Of a stretch of 64,000 bases of DNA, positions 16,408 to 24,783 are shown in pieces. The stretch is taken from contig NZ_CP038143.1 in assembly GCF_006542375.1 (NCBI RefSeq), positions 620,001 through 684,000 of the forward strand, written 5' to 3'. Both the position numbers and the translations under genes were made by a program. The notes beneath the pieces are model-generated. The model did no database searches. It saw only the letters and a list, made by a program, of their open reading frames with translations, and was not told the DNA's origin. Position 1 is the first letter of the stretch. Every line of letters begins with the position of its first letter. The stretch comes from Oecophyllibacter saccharovorans (GTDB lineage: Bacteria; Pseudomonadota; Alphaproteobacteria; Acetobacterales; Acetobacteraceae).

Positions 16408-16543
16408 GTTTTCATTCCGTAACGCTTGACAGACACGCGCAGGATTTGTCCACTTGTCGGGACTGGCTGGCGTTCCGCTTTCCGGAGCCCGGCAGGGCCT
16501 GGGGCAGCCGGGCCCACAACAGAGAAAGAGGCAACGGGCTGAA

Positions 16544-17251
16544 ATGAAGAGTTACGCCGAGCAGCAACGCAAGCCGACGGATTATCTCGTCGCTGCCGCT
16601 GTCGCGCTTCTGGCGCTGGCGCTGGTGGGGATCGGCCTCAATACCCAACCGAGCCCGCCCACCCAGACAGTGCGGCCGCCCATGCATACGGTCATTCTCC
16701 CGCCCGCTCCGCCCGCGCCCAAGCCCACCAATCCTCCCCCGCCGCCACCGCCCGCTTCAGTGGCGCCGCCGCCGGTTTTCGTACCGCCGCCCAAGCTCAA
16801 CCTGCCGGCCCCCAAACCGCCTCCGATCCGGGTCAGCCACCAGAAGGCGCCCCCCCATCCGCCCAAGGCAGCTGCCGCGCCTTCAAATGCGGCGCCCGGT
16901 CCCACTGATTCCACCTCCACCAAAGGCGCACCCGGGGGCACCAAGGGAGGCTCCACGGCCGACCATGCAGCCGGTGCGGTTCCCATCAACAATGTGCGGC
17001 CTGAATATCCCCAGGATGCGCAAGAGGAAAACCGCGAGGGGGCCGTGACAGCCTCCTGCGACATTCTCGCCACCGGCAAACCCGCCCATTGCCGTATTCT
17101 GAGCGTCAAAGGTGGCCGCGATTTCGCTGAGAGCGCCATGCAGTTCCTGGAACATTCCGCCGTACGCTATCAGCCGGCCGTCGTAAACGGTCAACCGGTC
17201 GTCGAGCACAACCACGTGCTGCATCTCGACTTCACCCTGAGCGATGATTGA
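16544..17251 (+). CDS. tonB: Energy-transducing protein TonB
   Basis: TonB carries proton-motive energy from ExbB-ExbD in the inner membrane to outer-membrane receptors. The 235-residue product has an N-terminal membrane anchor (residues about 14-32) and a long Pro-rich spacer (PNPPPPPPP-type runs, residues about 45-120). The C-terminal TonB domain has VRPEYPQDAQEENREGAV and YQPAVVNGQPV. Start was set at ATG 16544 because the anchor begins there; an upstream in-frame ATG gives an atypical basic leader. Its stop overlaps or abuts the start region of exbB, and two exbD genes follow, forming a full energisation operon. Confidence 0.93.
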   Translation: MKSYAEQQRKPTDYLVAAAVALLALALVGIGLNTQPSPPTQTVRPPMHTVILPPAPPAPKPTNPPPPPPPASVAPPPVFVPPPKLNLPAPKPPPIRVSHQKAPPHPPKAAAAPSNAAPGPTDSTSTKGAPGGTKGGSTADHAAGAVPINNVRPEYPQDAQEENREGAVTASCDILATGKPAHCRILSVKGGRDFAESAMQFLEHSAVRYQPAVVNGQPVVEHNHVLHLDFTLSDD

Positions 17252-17405
17252 GGACAGCATGAGCGATAAACCGGCCCGCCCCCTACCGGAAAGACGTTTC
17301 CTGACTCCCGGCGCACGGCGAATGCGCCGCACAGGACAAACGGACCAGACGCAGCTTCAGACCCAGATCAACACGACCATCACGACCAAGAGGATACCGG
17401 CCCCC

Positions 17406-18536
17406 ATGACCTCACTGTTCCGCTCCTTCCCGCTTTCCGCCTGCAAGCCCCAGGGCCTGGAAACCACACGCAGCCTGCGTTTCGGTCGGGGCGCGGCACT
17501 CGCCCTGGCCTTCGCCCCCCTGGTCGGAACCAGCCTGGCCGGCGTTGCGGCTGCCCAGACCCCTGCCCCCCAGGCAGCGGCCAGCCAGCCGGTCATTCCC
17601 GGGGCCAGTGCGACAGCCGGAGCTTCCGGGAATGCAGCCGAGCCGATGCCTGTTGTTCCGACCGCACCGGCCGGCCCCCCCGGTGAAGCGGCCGCTCCAG
17701 GTGCCACCCCGGCAGGCGCGGCACCCACCACAGGCACGGAAGCGACACCCCTGGCACCCGACACGGACAGCAAGGCCCAGGCCAGTGCGAAGAGCGGGGA
17801 CAACCCCTACGGGCTGAAGGCCCTGTGGAAGAATGGCGATATCATCGCCCGCAGTGTCCTGCTCATCATGGCCATCATGTCCCTGGGTTCGTGGATCATC
17901 ATCATCGTGAAGCTCCTGGAGGAAAACCGCCTCTTCAAGGCCGCACGCGAAGCGGCGCGGAGCTTCTGGGGGGCCGCGACGGTGCAGGAAGGCGCCAAAA
18001 CGCTCAAGCCGAACTCACCGTTCCGCTACATTGCCGAAACCGGCATCATCGCCGCCGAGCACCATGAAGGCGCGATGCGGGATTCGATCGACCTGCCCAC
18101 CTGGACGAGCCTTTCCATCCAGCGCGCGGTCGACACGATCAACACCCGCCTGCAGTCGGGCCTGGCCTTCCTCGGCACGGTGGGTTCCACCTCACCGTTC
18201 ATCGGCCTGTTCGGCACGGTGTGGGGCATCTATCACGCGCTGACGGCCATCGGCATCGCCGGCCAGGCCTCCATTGACAAGGTGGCGGGCCCGGTGGGTG
18301 AATCCCTCATCATGACCGCCATCGGCCTGGCCACCGCCGTGCCCGCCGTGCTGGGCTACAACCTGCTCGTGCGCCGCAACAAGGCAGCCATGGACTGCGT
18401 GCGCAACTTCGCCTCCGACATCCAGTCCGTCCTGCTGGGGGGGTACCGTCACGCTGATGTGCTCTCGGCTGCCAAGCAGGGAACTTCCTCCAACAATGAA
18501 CCTCCGGTGACCATCACCACCAGCAGCAGGGTCTGA
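17406..18536 (+). CDS. exbB: Biopolymer transport protein ExbB (MotA/TolQ/ExbB proton channel)
   Basis: ExbB forms the pentameric proton channel that energises TonB with ExbD. The product (376 residues from ATG 17406) starts with a signal-like segment (GAALALAFAPLVGTSLAGVAAAQ), then about 100 residues rich in Ala, Pro and Thr. The channel domain has a first TM (ARSVLLIMAIMSLGSWIIIIVKLLE) and the conserved FLGTVGSTSPFIGLFGTVWGIYHAL and ESLIMTAIGLATAVPAVLGYNLL blocks. The start is uncertain: ATG 17259 has a good GAGGA ribosome site and would add 49 polar residues, while 17406 gives a signal peptide at the N-terminus, as in extended ExbB proteins. Confidence 0.93.
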   Translation: MTSLFRSFPLSACKPQGLETTRSLRFGRGAALALAFAPLVGTSLAGVAAAQTPAPQAAASQPVIPGASATAGASGNAAEPMPVVPTAPAGPPGEAAAPGATPAGAAPTTGTEATPLAPDTDSKAQASAKSGDNPYGLKALWKNGDIIARSVLLIMAIMSLGSWIIIIVKLLEENRLFKAAREAARSFWGAATVQEGAKTLKPNSPFRYIAETGIIAAEHHEGAMRDSIDLPTWTSLSIQRAVDTINTRLQSGLAFLGTVGSTSPFIGLFGTVWGIYHALTAIGIAGQASIDKVAGPVGESLIMTAIGLATAVPAVLGYNLLVRRNKAAMDCVRNFASDIQSVLLGGYRHADVLSAAKQGTSSNNEPPVTITTSSRV

Positions 18537-18541
18537 GCTCC

Positions 18542-18964
18542 ATGGCCATCACCACTGGAAACGACAGCGAAGACGAGGTGGTCTCGGCCATCAACACCAC
18601 GCCGCTCGTGGATGTGATGCTGGTGCTGCTCATCATCTTTCTCATCACCATCCCTGTTGCCACGCATACGGTGAAGGTGAAGCTGCCCGTGGACCGAAAC
18701 CAGCCGACCCAGACCAAGAACGGCAATGTCGTGCTGGCTGTCACGACCGACGGACAGGCCTACTGGAACACCACGCCCCTGCACAGCCACCAGGAACTGG
18801 TCGCACGCCTGATGAACGTGGCCAGGCAGCAGCCCCAGCCCCAGATCCAGATCCGCGGGGATGCCAAGGCCAAGTATCAGGCGGTCGGACAGCTGGTGGC
18901 GGCCTGCCAGGAAGCCGGCATCCAGCATGTCGACTTCATCACCGAGCAACCCAAAGGACCTTGA
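18542..18964 (+). CDS. exbD: Biopolymer transport protein ExbD (first copy)
   Basis: ExbD is the single-TM partner that works with ExbB to couple proton flow to TonB. The 140-residue product has a short cytoplasmic N-terminus and INTTPLVDVMLVLLIIFLIT, where the Asp of PLVDVML is the conserved proton-responsive residue. A periplasmic domain ends the protein. The gene begins five bases after exbB and is 33 bases ahead of a second exbD. Identity between the two copies is clear in the membrane segment and low in the periplasmic part. Confidence 0.94.
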   Translation: MAITTGNDSEDEVVSAINTTPLVDVMLVLLIIFLITIPVATHTVKVKLPVDRNQPTQTKNGNVVLAVTTDGQAYWNTTPLHSHQELVARLMNVARQQPQPQIQIRGDAKAKYQAVGQLVAACQEAGIQHVDFITEQPKGP

Positions 18965-18997
18965 TATCAACGCCCCCTCATTTGCGGAGATTGCATC

Positions 18998-19429
18998 ATG
19001 GGCATGAATGTCGGCACCGACAGCACGCATGAAGACGAAGGCATCGTCGATATCAACACCACGCCGCTAATCGACGTGATGCTGGTGTTGCTCATCATGC
19101 TCATCATCACCATTCCGCTGCAGACGCACTCTGTCTCGATCGACCTGCCGCAGGGCAATCCGCCCCCGCCCACGACGGAGCCGAAGATCGATACGATCGA
19201 TATCGGTTATGACAACGCCATCAGCTGGAACGGCCAGCCCGTCGATGAAGCGACCCTGCAGGCCGATTTGCGCCAGGCAGCCAGTGAACCCGACCAGCCG
19301 GAGCTGCATATCCACCCCGACCGGCTGGCCGATTACAGGACGGTGGCCCATGTCCTGGCCCTTTCCCAGCGCCTGGGCATGACCAAACTGGGTATTGTCG
19401 GGCTGGACCAGGTCATGGACGACCAATAA
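18998..19429 (+). CDS. exbD: Biopolymer transport protein ExbD (second copy)
   Basis: A 143-residue second ExbD with INTTPLIDVMLVLLIMLIIT; the conserved Asp is kept, so it should be functional. The periplasmic part differs from copy one (PPPPTTEPKIDTIDIGYDN). Tandem exbD genes of this type occur in other alphaproteobacterial and xanthomonad TonB clusters, where both may join the complex or serve different receptors. A GGAG-like site (GCGGAG) precedes the ATG. It is probably transcribed with tonB-exbB-exbD1 and the following TPR gene. Confidence 0.93.
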   Translation: MGMNVGTDSTHEDEGIVDINTTPLIDVMLVLLIMLIITIPLQTHSVSIDLPQGNPPPPTTEPKIDTIDIGYDNAISWNGQPVDEATLQADLRQAASEPDQPELHIHPDRLADYRTVAHVLALSQRLGMTKLGIVGLDQVMDDQ

Positions 19430-19518
19430 CCCGACCAGACCCGGGATTCCGGGCCTTCTTTCCGTTCCCCCTCAACCCCGGCCGCTTATCCCTGCCTTTC
19501 CAGTCTCAGGAGCCATTC

Positions 19519-20889
19519 ATGCAGGTTTTTCGCCCCACCCTCCTATCGGTTTCCACGCTGGCTGCTTCCATGCTGGTGCTGGGGATGGCGGGGCTGCAGC
19601 CGGCCCTGGCCCGGCATCACGGGGGCACCTCTTCAGGAACCGGCCAGACACTTGCCCCTTCGCCCGGCAACGAAGTTCTGACCGGCGCCGTTGGTGAATG
19701 GCTGCAGAAGGCCCAGGCTGCCCTGCGGGCCCACAACCTCACCCAGGCCATGGAAGCGGTCAACGCAGCCCAGGCCGTGCCTGGCAAGACGGCTTATGAC
19801 AATGACACCATTGCCGAAATGGCGGCCGCGGTGGCTATGCAGGCCGGGCAGCCGGAAGTCGCGGTCCGGGCCTATGACATGCTGATCCACAGTCCCCGGA
19901 CCACGCGGGCGCAGAAAGCACAGATGCTCGATTCGGAAATCGGCATCGCTTATGCGGCCAAGAATTATCCTCAGGTCGAGGCGACCGTTGCCCGTTACCT
20001 CAAGGAAATCGGCCCCAGTGACAAGCTGGAAACGCTTCTGGTGCAGATCCCCTACAGCCAGCAGAACTGGGCGGCCGCGGTGAAGGCCGCTCTTGCCCAG
20101 GTAGATGCGGCGCGCAGAACCGGAACACGTCCTCCCGAAGCCGTGCTGCAGCTTCTGGCCAGTGCCCAGAAAGCGCTGCATAATTTCAGCGGTGTCACTG
20201 CGGCCTATGCGCTGTCAGCCCGCTATTACCCAAGCGCGCTTTACTGGCAGAACCTCCTTTATAATCTGGCCAGCGACAAGGGTCTGACCTCCCGGCTGGG
20301 CTTCAACCTGGCACGACTGCGCCTGACGGCCGGCCTGGCCACCAATGCCGCCACCTACCGGGACCTGGCCGAGCGGGCCGTGCAGATGGGACTGCCCCAG
20401 CTGGCGCTGAATCTGCTTGACTACGGACAGGCGCATCACGTGCTGGGCCCCGGATCAGGCGCAACCCCCGCTGAGCTGAATGCCCAGGCCCGCTTCCAGG
20501 CTTTCGTGACCCAGCAGGTCGTCAAACTCAAAGCCACCCTGCCGCAACAGGTTGCTGCTGCCCAGGCCTCGCCGGCCCCAGGGCCCGCGCTGACGACAGG
20601 TTATGACCTCGTTCTGGCCGGCCAGGCGCATAAAGGCCTGGCCCTGATGCGCACCGGGCTGAGCCGTCACCCCAAGCATCCCGCTGCTGCCCTGCTGGAA
20701 TACGGCATGGCCCTGCTCGACAGCGGTCGTGTCAATGATGCGCTGAAGGTCTTCGCCCTGGTGCCGCCTGACACGACCGCGCGCAGCCTTGCCGATGCCT
20801 GGACGGCCCTGCTGCTGACGCCGCCCCAGACATTGAAACAGGTCCTGGCCCAACCGGCCCAGCGATCCGCCAGCCCGCATACTCGCTGA
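19519..20889 (+). CDS. Secreted TPR-repeat protein
   Basis: A 456-residue protein with a signal peptide (STLAASMLVLGMAGLQPALARHH, cleavage near residue 31) and a helical, Ala/Leu-rich body with TPR-like repeats (for example LQKAQAALRAHNLTQAMEAVNAA and a late HPKHPAAALLEYGMALLDSG). Start is ATG 19519 behind AGGAG. It sits 89 bases after exbD2 and may be the last gene of the TonB operon, suggesting a periplasmic scaffold role with TonB or its receptors. That is inference from position. No enzymatic motif is seen. Confidence 0.8.
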   Translation: MQVFRPTLLSVSTLAASMLVLGMAGLQPALARHHGGTSSGTGQTLAPSPGNEVLTGAVGEWLQKAQAALRAHNLTQAMEAVNAAQAVPGKTAYDNDTIAEMAAAVAMQAGQPEVAVRAYDMLIHSPRTTRAQKAQMLDSEIGIAYAAKNYPQVEATVARYLKEIGPSDKLETLLVQIPYSQQNWAAAVKAALAQVDAARRTGTRPPEAVLQLLASAQKALHNFSGVTAAYALSARYYPSALYWQNLLYNLASDKGLTSRLGFNLARLRLTAGLATNAATYRDLAERAVQMGLPQLALNLLDYGQAHHVLGPGSGATPAELNAQARFQAFVTQQVVKLKATLPQQVAAAQASPAPGPALTTGYDLVLAGQAHKGLALMRTGLSRHPKHPAAALLEYGMALLDSGRVNDALKVFALVPPDTTARSLADAWTALLLTPPQTLKQVLAQPAQRSASPHTR

Positions 20890-21204
20890 TCTTCGCCAGG
20901 CCCACGCGCCTGGAGCAAAATTACAGGCCATCCTGGTCCCCCAGCACACCTGGCGCCTTTCTTCTTTTGCGCTGAGGGCCATTTTTGCCGTTTTTGCAAG
21001 TGTATCGTCCTGGCTTCATTGCAAGTATCATTGCAGCCATTGCCGCAGCACATTCCTGCAGCCTGTACTTTTCGGAAGAGGTTCCTTTCCGTGCCGACCA
21101 ACGCTTTCCTGTTCTGCTCTTTGCCCCTTTTCAGCTCTGTTTTTGCAGGGCTTTCCACCAAACGTGCGCCACGGTCTTGCAGAGAGAAGCTTCAGGGAGC
21201 CGGA
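20890..21204. other. Intergenic region before the MscS-type gene
   Basis: About 315 bases. An in-frame extension of the downstream gene reaches back to 21019 but lacks a ribosome site and encodes a Cys/Phe-rich leader unlike a signal peptide, so it was not used. No clear terminator, operator or RNA gene was recognised. Confidence 0.4.
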
Positions 21205-24200
21205 ATGCGGGCAAGCCTGCTGGCGCTGGGCCTCTTTTTCAGCCTGGTCGGCCTGCCTGCTCTGTCAGACGGGTCGGGAGGCGGTTGCTGGTTTTCGCCA
21301 GCCCGGGCGGAAGAAGCCTTTTCCGGTGCTGGCGCCAGTGCTTCGGGCCCTGCCCAGAACACACCGCCTCATGACGCCCAACCTCACAGGGAACAGCCTC
21401 ACAAGGAGAAAGCCGCCAAGCCGGCGCCGGCGCTCGATCCTTCCCAGGCCCAGCAGCTGCTTAGCGTTCTGAACAACCCCGTCAAGCGCAAGGAATTCAC
21501 CCAGACCCTACAGAACATGAGCAAGGTCCAGACTACCCTGGATCACAAGGAAGACCAGAGCCTGCTTGACCAGGGCTGGGCGCATATCAGCGCTTTCAGT
21601 GAGCACCTGCTGGGCAAGTCCCAGGCGCTGATTCAGGATGTCACCAATTTCCACGCTTTCGTGCCGTGGACGCATCACGTTCTGAAAACGCCGTCCTTGC
21701 AGGTGGAAATCGCCCGGATCTGCCTGCGCGTCGCCATCATGATCATCGGGGGGCTCGCGCTGTCCTATGGCATGGCCTATCTGCTGCGCATACCGCGACG
21801 CAAGCTTGAAGAAGCAGCCAAGCGGATGAGCGAGCGCGAAATCATGAGCGCTGAAAAAGAGGCGGCCCGGGCTGAGGAGCAGGCTGAACGCCTGGCAGAG
21901 CTCGCCAAAGAAGCCAAGGAAAAAGCCCGCCAGGCAGCCGAGAAAAAGGCCCACGCTGAAGCCGCTGCCAAACAGGCAGCCGAGCAGAAAGCGGCCACAG
22001 AAGCAGAAAAAGAAAAAGAAAAAGAAAAAGAAAAAGAAAAAGAAAAAACGTCTTCCCATAAGCCCGAAGCTCAGCAAATCGCCCCGCAGAAAGACGCCGC
22101 GGCTGATCATGGCTCAGAAACAGCTGAACCTTCCGAAGCCTCCGAAGCCGGTCACGCGCCGAAACCTCCTGAAACCGGCGAAAGCACTGAGACCGCTGCG
22201 GGTGGGCAGGACGGCAAAAGTGACAGCAATGACGATGCTGAGGACGACGAGAAACCGCTGGCCTTGAAGGACACAACCCAGATCGTGCCCCATCATGAGA
22301 CTGACGCTCATGCTGCCGAGGCACCGCATCCAGAAAGCGCTGAGCACGCGGGCAAAGCAGATACAGCCTCAGAAGCGGGTAAAGAAAAAACGCCTGCCCG
22401 TACTTCTGCCACAGAGGAGGACATGTCGGCCCTGGCAACAGGGATTCCATCACTCAGTGATCCAACCCAGCTTGATCCTGCCCAGGCGCGGGCAGAACGG
22501 GAAAAAGCCGCTCATAAAAAAGAGGAAGAGGCTCGGAACGCATCGGCGGCCCAAGCGGACCCGGAACAGACTTCCCCAGATGCCGCCGGAATCGATGCCA
22601 ACCAGGACGCCCACAAGGATTCCGGGGAAAACAGCGCCCAGGACAGTTCCGGGGCCACGCCACTGGCACAGGCTGCCATTGTTCAATACGAACTCTCCGA
22701 AACCCAGCCTCCTTATCCCAAGCCCCTCGCCAATGTAGCCCAGGCAGAGGCGGACGCTGCCGATGCCCAGGCGGGAAAGGCGCAGTCCACTGCTGCCGCA
22801 GCACAGAACGGCAACAAGGCGGAATCGAACGCCTCGGAAGCAGACAACCCCGCGCAGAACAGCGCCCCCACTGACGCCGGCACTTCAGACGGGAAGTCAG
22901 GCCCCAACGCTGAACAGAGCGACAGCCAGGCCAATGATCAGGCCGAGCTGGCCCAGGACAAGGCGCAACTCGCCGCCGATGGCCGCGACTGGCAGGCGTC
23001 GATGACGCAGATGGTGGAGCTGTTCAGGCGGATCCCCTACGCCCTGGGCCTGTTCTGCCTGAATCTGGTCAGCATCATGATGTTCCCGCTCATGGCGCTG
23101 ATCATCCAGTCTCTCGATCCCAGCCCTGACAAACAGACCCTGCAGGCTGTCTGGAGTATCTCCTGGCTGGCCAGTGTCGCGCTCGGCGTGTGGGTTGCAG
23201 GACTGCGCGCGCTGTTTGCCCCCCTGCGGCCCTGGATGCGTCTTATCCCGTGCAGTGACCAGACAGCTTGGTTCTTCTTCCGGGGACTCAAGCGCATCGG
23301 CACGGTCAGCAGCTGGGGCGTTACGGCCCTGATCATCCTGCGCTGCTGTACCCTGCCTGCCAATGTGCTGGATTCACTGGCCAAGCTGCTGATGCTGATC
23401 GTGCACATCATGATCGCAGTGATGATTCTCGGCTCGCGCCCCCTAGTCCGGCATGCCTGCGACCGCGTGGTGGCGCACAAGCCCTCCCTGCGCACCATCA
23501 TGCGCATCGTTTCTGGCGTCTGGTGGATCGCGGCCCTCTTCTTTGATTTCAGCCTGTGGCTGGTCTGGGCCATGGGTATTCCAGGCGGCTACCAGCTTAT
23601 CTTCAGGGTTTTCCTGCATACCTGCATCACCCTGGCGATCATGCGCGCTTTCAGCATCCTGATTCTGGGCGCTTTCGAACGCGTTCTCTCGCGGCTGGAG
23701 AATTCGCCGCGCATCAGCAACGTGCTGTCCACGCGCATCACCACCTACGCCCCTGTGATCGAGAAAATGCTCAACGTCATTCTGCTGGGGCTGACGGCAG
23801 TGGCGCTGCTTCTGGCCTGGGGGGTGCCGCTGCGGGCGCTGATCGGACCGCACAGCTTCGGGGCAAAGGTGTTCTCCTCGCTCACCGATATCTGCCTTTC
23901 CGTCTTTATCGGCTTCTGCATCTGGGAAGCGGCCAACATGTTCTTTGAGCGCCGCATCAATCTCCTGCTCGAGGAAGGGAACTCACGCGGGATCAAGGCA
24001 CGCGTTGCCCGGCTGCGTACCCTGCAGCCGATGATGCGGATCATCCTGTTTGTCAGTCTCACCATCCTGATCGGCCTGACGACCCTGTCCGATCTCGGCG
24101 TCAATATCGCCCCGCTTCTGGCAGGCGCGTCCATCTTCGGCGTGGCGCTGGGCTTCGGTGCCCAGAAACTGGTGCAGGATTTCATCAGCGGCATTTTCCT

Positions 24201-24783
24201 GCTGCTGGAAAACGCCTTCACGGTCGGTGACGCGGTCACGCTCAATGGCACCTACGGCATTGTGGAAAAGCTTTCCCTGCGCACGGTGCATGTGCGGGCT
24301 GATGACGGGTCGATGAACATCTTCCCCTTTTCTTCGCTCTCGCAGACGGTCAACTACAACCGTGAGTTCGGTCGCGCTCTCATCGTGGCGGACGTGGCTT
24401 ACGACAGCAATATCGGCGACGTGATCAAAGCCTTTCACGACATCACAGCTGAAATGCGCAGCAGTGAGGATTACGGCGATCTCATCATCGATGATTTCCA
24501 GCTCTGGGGTGTCTCGTCGCTCAACGATTCTTCAGTGACCGTCAAGGGCGCCTTGCCCACCATTCCACCTGGTCGCCTGCCCGTGCAGCGCGAGTTCAAC
24601 CGGCGCATGCTGGTGGTCTTCGCCGAACGCGGAATCGACTTCCCCTATCCCACGCGCACCCTCGACGTCCCGGTGCTCGATACCTTCCTGCAGCAGGAAC
24701 GTGAAAACCGCTTTCCGCTTCTGGGTGGAAACGAAAGCAAGGATCAGGACAACCCGAACGGTCACGGGAAGGGAAAGCGCTAA
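21205..24783 (+). CDS. Large MscS-family mechanosensitive channel with long charged insert
   Basis: A 1192-residue MscS-type channel, expected to release solutes on hypo-osmotic shock. It has a signal peptide (about residues 1-25), a periplasmic helical region, and a first TM (about 166-195). Next comes about 390 residues rich in Ala, Glu, Lys, Asp and Gln (about 200-590), and then several TMs. The MscS core has the pore helix (APLLAGASIFGVALGFGAQKLVQDFISG split over residues about 968-1000), the NAFTVGDAV beta-domain entry and FPFSSLSQ. Start ATG 21205 has AGGGAG five bases upstream. The insert contains the run encoded by seven GAAAAA repeats. A strong terminator follows. Confidence 0.88.
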   Translation: MRASLLALGLFFSLVGLPALSDGSGGGCWFSPARAEEAFSGAGASASGPAQNTPPHDAQPHREQPHKEKAAKPAPALDPSQAQQLLSVLNNPVKRKEFTQTLQNMSKVQTTLDHKEDQSLLDQGWAHISAFSEHLLGKSQALIQDVTNFHAFVPWTHHVLKTPSLQVEIARICLRVAIMIIGGLALSYGMAYLLRIPRRKLEEAAKRMSEREIMSAEKEAARAEEQAERLAELAKEAKEKARQAAEKKAHAEAAAKQAAEQKAATEAEKEKEKEKEKEKEKTSSHKPEAQQIAPQKDAAADHGSETAEPSEASEAGHAPKPPETGESTETAAGGQDGKSDSNDDAEDDEKPLALKDTTQIVPHHETDAHAAEAPHPESAEHAGKADTASEAGKEKTPARTSATEEDMSALATGIPSLSDPTQLDPAQARAEREKAAHKKEEEARNASAAQADPEQTSPDAAGIDANQDAHKDSGENSAQDSSGATPLAQAAIVQYELSETQPPYPKPLANVAQAEADAADAQAGKAQSTAAAAQNGNKAESNASEADNPAQNSAPTDAGTSDGKSGPNAEQSDSQANDQAELAQDKAQLAADGRDWQASMTQMVELFRRIPYALGLFCLNLVSIMMFPLMALIIQSLDPSPDKQTLQAVWSISWLASVALGVWVAGLRALFAPLRPWMRLIPCSDQTAWFFFRGLKRIGTVSSWGVTALIILRCCTLPANVLDSLAKLLMLIVHIMIAVMILGSRPLVRHACDRVVAHKPSLRTIMRIVSGVWWIAALFFDFSLWLVWAMGIPGGYQLIFRVFLHTCITLAIMRAFSILILGAFERVLSRLENSPRISNVLSTRITTYAPVIEKMLNVILLGLTAVALLLAWGVPLRALIGPHSFGAKVFSSLTDICLSVFIGFCIWEAANMFFERRINLLLEEGNSRGIKARVARLRTLQPMMRIILFVSLTILIGLTTLSDLGVNIAPLLAGASIFGVALGFGAQKLVQDFISGIFLLLENAFTVGDAVTLNGTYGIVEKLSLRTVHVRADDGSMNIFPFSSLSQTVNYNREFGRALIVADVAYDSNIGDVIKAFHDITAEMRSSEDYGDLIIDDFQLWGVSSLNDSSVTVKGALPTIPPGRLPVQREFNRRMLVVFAERGIDFPYPTRTLDVPVLDTFLQQERENRFPLLGGNESKDQDNPNGHGKGKR
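22006..22047 (+). repeat. Seven perfect tandem GAAAAA repeats in the MscS-type gene
   Basis: Seven head-to-tail copies of GAAAAA encode alternating Glu-Lys. Because the unit is six bases, gain or loss of copies keeps the frame and changes protein length by two residues at a time, so the tract could vary between strains by slippage. Confidence 0.95.

Follow-up and report, generated by a model that had tools for sequence, protein, structure and literature searches.

The window, the whole 64,000-nucleotide stretch of DNA analysed here, contains a gene for a YbiO-type MscS channel whose features are listed in Table 1. The gene lies in a single unbroken open reading frame that runs from a TTG codon at 21019 to 24783; the ATG at 21205 precedes a signal-peptide-like stretch. 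In a Pfam search, the MscS beta domain (PF00924) was matched with an E-value of 1e-16 (61.3 bits, against a cut-off of 20.2), and three further MS_channel models scored just under their cut-offs (PF25392, 21.3 against 27.1 bits; PF21082, 20.9 against 21; PF21088, 18.2 against 23.1). The top NCBIfam model was NF008542 (YbiO; E-value 1.3e-48, profile positions 214-716 of 741). Its score of 165.9 bits falls far short of the equivalog cut-off of 596; therefore, the channel is a YbiO-type relative and should not be called a YbiO equivalog. The PF00924 and NF008542 matches agree with the MscS-type assignment that had been made from the letters and open reading frames alone (the sequence-only reading). 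The YbiO chains 9go3 and 7a46 were the top PDB matches, both by sequence and by Foldseek E-value; the superposition on these chains was poor, with TM-scores of 0.10 (by query) and 0.38-0.43 (by target). The layout predicted from hydropathy, K+R counts, AF2, and the family rows consists of a signal peptide, a periplasmic segment, 11 TMs, and a cytosolic C-terminus. The segment between the signal-peptide-like start and TM1 is common to the family. The channel is presumably heptameric, with an MscS-type pore.

Table 1. Features of the channel gene in the window, with the basis on which each was placed.
Feature	Position	Strand	Basis
YbiO-type MscS channel gene	21205..24783	+	ORF, ATG start, stop included, 1192 aa
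Signal-peptide-like N-terminus (putative)	21205..21312 (end approximate)	+	Hydrophobic window at residues 3-21; similar start in relatives
TM1 helix, residues 163-193	21691..21783	+	AF2 helix, pLDDT ~94; hydropathy 1.96
Helical stalk prolonging TM1, residues 195-278 (predicted)	21787..22038	+	AF2 helix; similar plan in G029
Perfect 6-base microsatellite, 7.2 copies, encoding a Glu-Lys run	22005..22047	+	TRF
Acidic disordered tip, part 1, residues 279-424, net charge -21	22039..22476	+	Block pLDDT 30-36 over most; composition
Short charged helix within tip, residues 425-448, 24 residues (predicted)	22477..22548	+	AF2, block pLDDT up to 85
Disordered tip, part 2, residues 449-567, net charge -13	22549..22905	+	Block pLDDT 29-46; composition
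Motif PLAQAAIVQYELSETQP	22660..22710	+	Match in the G066 linker, about as far from TM2
Return helix into TM2, residues 568-607	22906..23025	+	AF2 helix 568-624, block pLDDT 80-95
TM2 to TM11, pore helix, cytosolic cage	23029..24780	+	AF2 secondary structure; PF00924; three MS_channel models just under cut-offs

TM1 and TM2 (residues 609-637) flank an insert of residues 195-607 (window 21787-23025), which is the position that the sequence-only reading had described. That reading had estimated about 390 residues at 21800-22980; the location holds, and the extent was slightly short. The linker has 414 residues counted from RIPRRK up to RIPYALG, and 423 by the hydropathy measure that was applied to the relatives, which is accurate to about 10 residues. 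The composition of the 414 residues (A 22.9, E 13.5, K 8.5, S 7.7, Q 7.2, and D 7.2%) and their net charge of -37 confirm a charged section rich in Ala, Glu, Lys, Asp, and Gln. At third codon positions, GC in the insert amounts to 0.59, whereas the codon use of the core would predict 0.70, a difference consistent with a younger sequence. We scanned 464 kb of the 1.94 Mb genome (the window plus twenty 20-kb stretches) for low-hydrophobicity runs. Among the 397 greedy stop-to-stop frames of at least 100 codons, some of which are surely not genes, the linker was the longest such run (419 residues; runner-up 241). For the other MscS-type protein found in this genome (an 864-residue frame), its stretch has no low-hydrophobicity run of at least 100 residues. 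The genome is in two contigs, and the second, of 2500 bases, matched nothing in the plasmid collection.

The insert is ten TMs away from the cage, and the K+R residues within the loops or close to them number 6, 4, 6, 4, and 7 on the cytosolic side versus 1, 1, 1, 1, 2, and 0 on the periplasmic side. For this count, the TMs were picked by hand from the AF2 helices (TM4 is weakly hydrophobic, at 1.14), and loops of more than 30 residues were scored over 15 residues at either end. Given ten TMs up to a cytosolic cage and the alternation in K+R, the insert is most likely cytosolic; the cytoplasmic placement proposed earlier is thus supported, short of proof.

The channel core was matched in 286 of 299 family genomes, a best E-value near 1e-13 being a match via another MscS type only. 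The nearest named relatives are Acetobacteraceae (an ESL0709 isolate, Gluconobacter, Saccharibacter, Neokomagataea, Bombella, and Asaia). In 77 of the 80 named loci, the TM1-TM2 linker measured 41-133 residues, with a median of 79; the other three yielded no measure. Among the 45 family rows, 42 have linkers of 48-133 residues or, in one case (G070), 174, while the others have 192 (G115), 214 (G029), and 250 (G066). Several named loci are the same records as family rows, and within the family rows three genomes supply two rows each and one supplies two copies from elsewhere. In L016 (350), L053 (229), and L069 (235), the automatic finder mistook the signal peptide for TM1; the linkers of the first two were set by hand (214 and 94), and the third was left out. 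Ten rows, including E. coli, were left out of the automatic measure because the core alignment began too late. Outside the family, seven loci with large or longish open frames were chosen among the matches listed for other alphaproteobacterial families. Five have a linker of about 15-30 residues by eye, the sixth (L207) probably likewise, and L208 partially matches a different type of channel; the large open frames of these loci are upstream of the channel.

In a maximum-likelihood tree of 68 cores, the window, G066, G115, and G029 form one clade (100/98), within which the window groups with G066 (100/97). The tree tool flags the window and G066 as long end branches with less sure placement, and the G029/G115 stem is also long, so long-branch effects may contribute to the grouping. 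The 68 cores were sampled by keeping roughly one in four of the named rows below 45% identity and omitting rows that matched ones already included. The four members, from four species in three genera, all have linkers above 190 residues (423, 250, 214, and 192), and the remaining rows of the surrounding 42-row group have 71-133. The long linker is therefore not confined to the window, as the sequence-only reading had considered it might be. Since G070 falls outside this clade, its 174-residue linker represents a separate, smaller growth. A linker is present in every relative measured, and its lengths are graded, which argues for a lineage-specific enlargement and against a sudden foreign insert. 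The linker of the window looks like an extreme version of the shorter one in the relatives; the "insert" first proposed is better understood as an enlargement of this linker, not as a new element. MscL was matched in the genome of the window, in G066, in G061, and in G135, with no match in G029 or G115, which belong to one genus.

The AF2 model of the channel, computed from the 45-row alignment, has a mean pLDDT of 69.0 and a pTM of 0.52. In the predicted stalk, block pLDDT is 89-96 up to residue 250, then 83 and 77, and declines to 56 at residues 271-280. The periodicity of nonpolar residues at 3.5 in the return helix was reached by 3 of 1000 shuffles. A run with G029 as the first sequence gave a mean pLDDT of 79.9 and a pTM of 0.57; here, helices at 169-240 and 245-273 are followed by a low-confidence segment at 279-314 and a return helix at 316-402. 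The models thus suggest a plan of stalk, disordered tip, and return helix common to the window and G029, two of the four clade members. Both models are of monomers, and few alignment rows cover the insert. AF2 readily draws helices in sequence rich in Ala, Glu, and Lys. The sequence-only reading had called for disorder and coiled-coil prediction: disorder is predicted from pLDDT values of about 30-46 in both parts of the tip. Heptad patterns in the stalk did no better than chance (Ala plus hydrophobic residues, reached by 158 of 1000 shuffles; hydrophobic residues, 898 of 1000). The salt bridges of a single alpha-helix were likewise no better than in shuffles (313 of 2000).

Neither the insert nor the G066 linker matched any Pfam family. 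When the orthologues were compared, as had been proposed, neither length nor composition was kept within the long-linker clade, and net charge was not kept either. The net charges are -37 (423 residues), -10 (250), -8 (214), and -3 (192); in the 41 family rows with linkers of up to 133 residues, they range from -8 to +8. Similarly, the G066 linker contains 15.6% Q and 3.7% K, versus 7.2% and 8.5% in the window. The two linkers nevertheless aligned with a gapped score of 159 versus a shuffle maximum of 153 (0 of 500 shuffles reach it); without gaps, their best free match is unremarkable, being reached by 61 of 1000 shuffles.

A Glu-Lys run, a feature described previously, is present, and it is encoded by a perfect hexanucleotide microsatellite. 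A pattern search gave five overlapping matches versus none in 100 shuffles. Perfect hexamer repeats are of the kind prone to slip, and, because the unit has six bases, slippage would alter the Glu-Lys count and leave the frame intact.

We consider the linker to be a helical hairpin, on the outermost paddle helices, that slippage has enlarged specifically in this lineage and that is either tolerated or weakly tunes the gating, and we give this reading a probability of a little under 60%. It is favoured by the presence of a linker in every relative, the upward grading in length, the shared plan, the drift in composition, the hexamer repeat, the third-position GC, and the missing Pfam match. The sequence comparisons and models show the position, the likely cytosolic side, the helix-tip-helix plan, a single long-linker clade, and rapid change of the tip. 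The rest of the mechanism is more conjectural. A cytosolic TM1-TM2 hairpin would have lengthened to give a helical stalk that ends in an acidic, disordered tip of some 290 residues; this tip would have expanded through slippage and growth of low-complexity sequence. The site of growth would tolerate insertion and have no essential role in pore opening. Together, the seven tips would surround the base of the channel with a bulky, negatively charged fringe, and this fringe would at most slightly shift the gating threshold, crowding, or clustering. The linker is probably a fast-changing appendage and not a new kind of machine.

Several observations weigh against tolerated drift. The linker has stayed long in all four clade members across long branches, and drift would not have to produce this. 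None of 500 shuffles equalled the alignment score of the window linker with that of G066, and a short motif may be conserved. The models are of monomers with pTM values of 0.52 and 0.57, and the patterns tried in the stalk were no better than shuffles. Conclusions about constraint are limited by the small sample of four sequences.

The sequence-only reading had suggested that the segment might act as an osmotic or ionic-strength sensor, a tether, or a plug. As a sensor of ionic strength or crowding, the tip would be a polyanionic, disordered brush on seven stalks, which swells or collapses as cytosolic salt and crowding change and passes force to the sensor paddle by way of the stalk helices. 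The tip is indeed very acidic, predicted to be disordered, and joined to TM1 by a confidently predicted helix. Sensor paddles set the gating threshold in a YnaI-MscS chimera (PMC12375004), so that added mass on the hairpin of the outermost paddle could tune gating. A precedent for the sensor comes from plants, where salt and crowding elicit a response in vitro from the disordered N-terminal regions of MSL8-10 (PMC10400277). However, neither the net charge nor the composition and length of the tip are kept within the clade, which weakens the idea, and the relatives with linkers of 41-133 residues presumably gate without such a tip. A sensor is possible and unproven, and we regard it as unlikely. 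An extended version, in which the brush on seven stalks reads ionic strength or crowding and pulls the paddles, and slipping of the microsatellite at the end of the stalk tunes length and sensitivity among strains, would be a long shot.

The tether explanation concerns both the motif and the neighbouring genes. In it, the linker would dock the channel to a partner via the motif PLxxAA[IV]xQYx[IL]SE, the partner perhaps being a product of the adjoining TonB-ExbB-ExbD-TPR genes or a division protein. The motif reads PLAQAAIVQYELSE in the window and PLLRAAVSQYNISE in G066, and it lies 123 and 114 residues, respectively, before the TM2 anchor. Its statistics are weak: the scores were reached by 6 (14-mer), 3 (18-mer), and 19 (24-mer) of 300 shuffles, and by 4 of 100 in a second 14-mer run. 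The 10-mer test found another place and gave no signal (85 of 300 shuffles), and the best match in G029 and in G115 falls on a different segment. The possible conservation of the motif between the window and G066 is suggestive. Part of the tip is still recognisably common to the two, and the motif may be mere residual homology.

In the window, the genes at 16430-24783 are in the order TonB, ExbB, ExbD, ExbD, TPR-like, and YbiO-type channel, as identified with Pfam (the TPR match is under its cut-off). In the ExbB-like frame (17241-18533), the ExbB domain is preceded by 116 residues of low complexity, rich in Ala, Pro, and Gly. The order ExbB-ExbD-ExbD-TPR-channel was found in 8 of the 11 loci compared; in L038, truncated at its edge, the TPR gene is present, and L040 and L044 show none of these genes within the stretch compared. 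In G100, G200, and G157, a second, divergent YbiO-type channel lies near the first (L037:7539-9929, L038:2469-4856, and L039:2400-4787); its core is 33-34% identical, and its linker is 57-65 residues long. The conserved neighbourhood supports orthology and is not tied to linker length. For a tether, it offers candidate partners, and an interaction of the MscS cytoplasmic domain with FtsZ has been reported in E. coli (PMC4440785). However, the neighbours are equally kept beside short-linker channels and so do not explain the long linker. Taken with the statistics of the motif, this makes a tether quite doubtful. A possible link of a tension channel with the TonB energy system is worth a look.

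A cytoplasmic plug or a selectivity filter at the portals of the cage is very improbable. The segment is acidic and would be long enough to reach the portals; however, it hangs from the TM1-TM2 pair, the furthest in sequence from the pore and cage, its charge is not kept, and the one element of the tip predicted with fair confidence is a single 24-residue helix. Low complexity and a microsatellite could mislead an assembler, but an artefact of assembly or frame reading, in which the stretch is not translated as presented, deserves hardly any credence, as one open frame of 1192 codons runs through a clean channel and the linkers of G066, G029, and G115 are long and in frame too.

The clade, in which the hairpin of the outermost paddle lengthened from about 80 to more than 400 residues, offers a natural series for testing whether bulk and charge added to a paddle in the cytosol alter tension gating. 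If tolerated drift alone is at work, the tip of the hairpin would be a permissive place for tags or reporters.

E. coli YbiO (NF008542; 7a46, 9go3) can be aligned with the channel from TM2 to the cage, and it, too, begins with a signal-peptide-like stretch and carries a linker in the corresponding position between TM1 and TM2; in contrast, its linker has about 25-30 residues by eye. The YbiO chains in the fold library contain 223 and 253 of 765 and 749 residues, respectively, so the outer paddle of YbiO was apparently not modelled. The YbiO-type channels of other Acetobacteraceae (Bombella, Saccharibacter, Neokomagataea, Asaia, and Gluconobacter) have cores 46-57% identical to that of the window, with a similar start, a similar N-terminal segment, and a charged, Ala/Glu-rich linker; however, in the named Acetobacteraceae with at least 46% identity, this linker has 71-133 residues. 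E. coli MscK and MscM share the MscS core, and they have many extra TMs and a long periplasmic N-terminal domain. We know of no cytosolic tip of this kind in either.

Among the matches listed in a search of open-licence PMC papers, whose titles and abstract beginnings were covered, no bacterial MscS with such a TM1-TM2 linker was found. In plants, the MscS-like channels MSL8, MSL9, and MSL10 bear cytosolic disordered regions (PMC10400277); unlike the tip in the window, these are N-terminal and not between TM1 and TM2. AtMSL10 and FLYC1 have a linker between TM4 and TM5, beside the pore helix, which differs from the position in the window, and the numbering 335-480 suggests that it is probably shorter (PMC10560256). 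Like the linker predicted for the window, it is cytoplasmic and joins two TMs of an MscS-like heptamer, and this partly unresolved domain has been proposed to take part in gating (PMC10560256).
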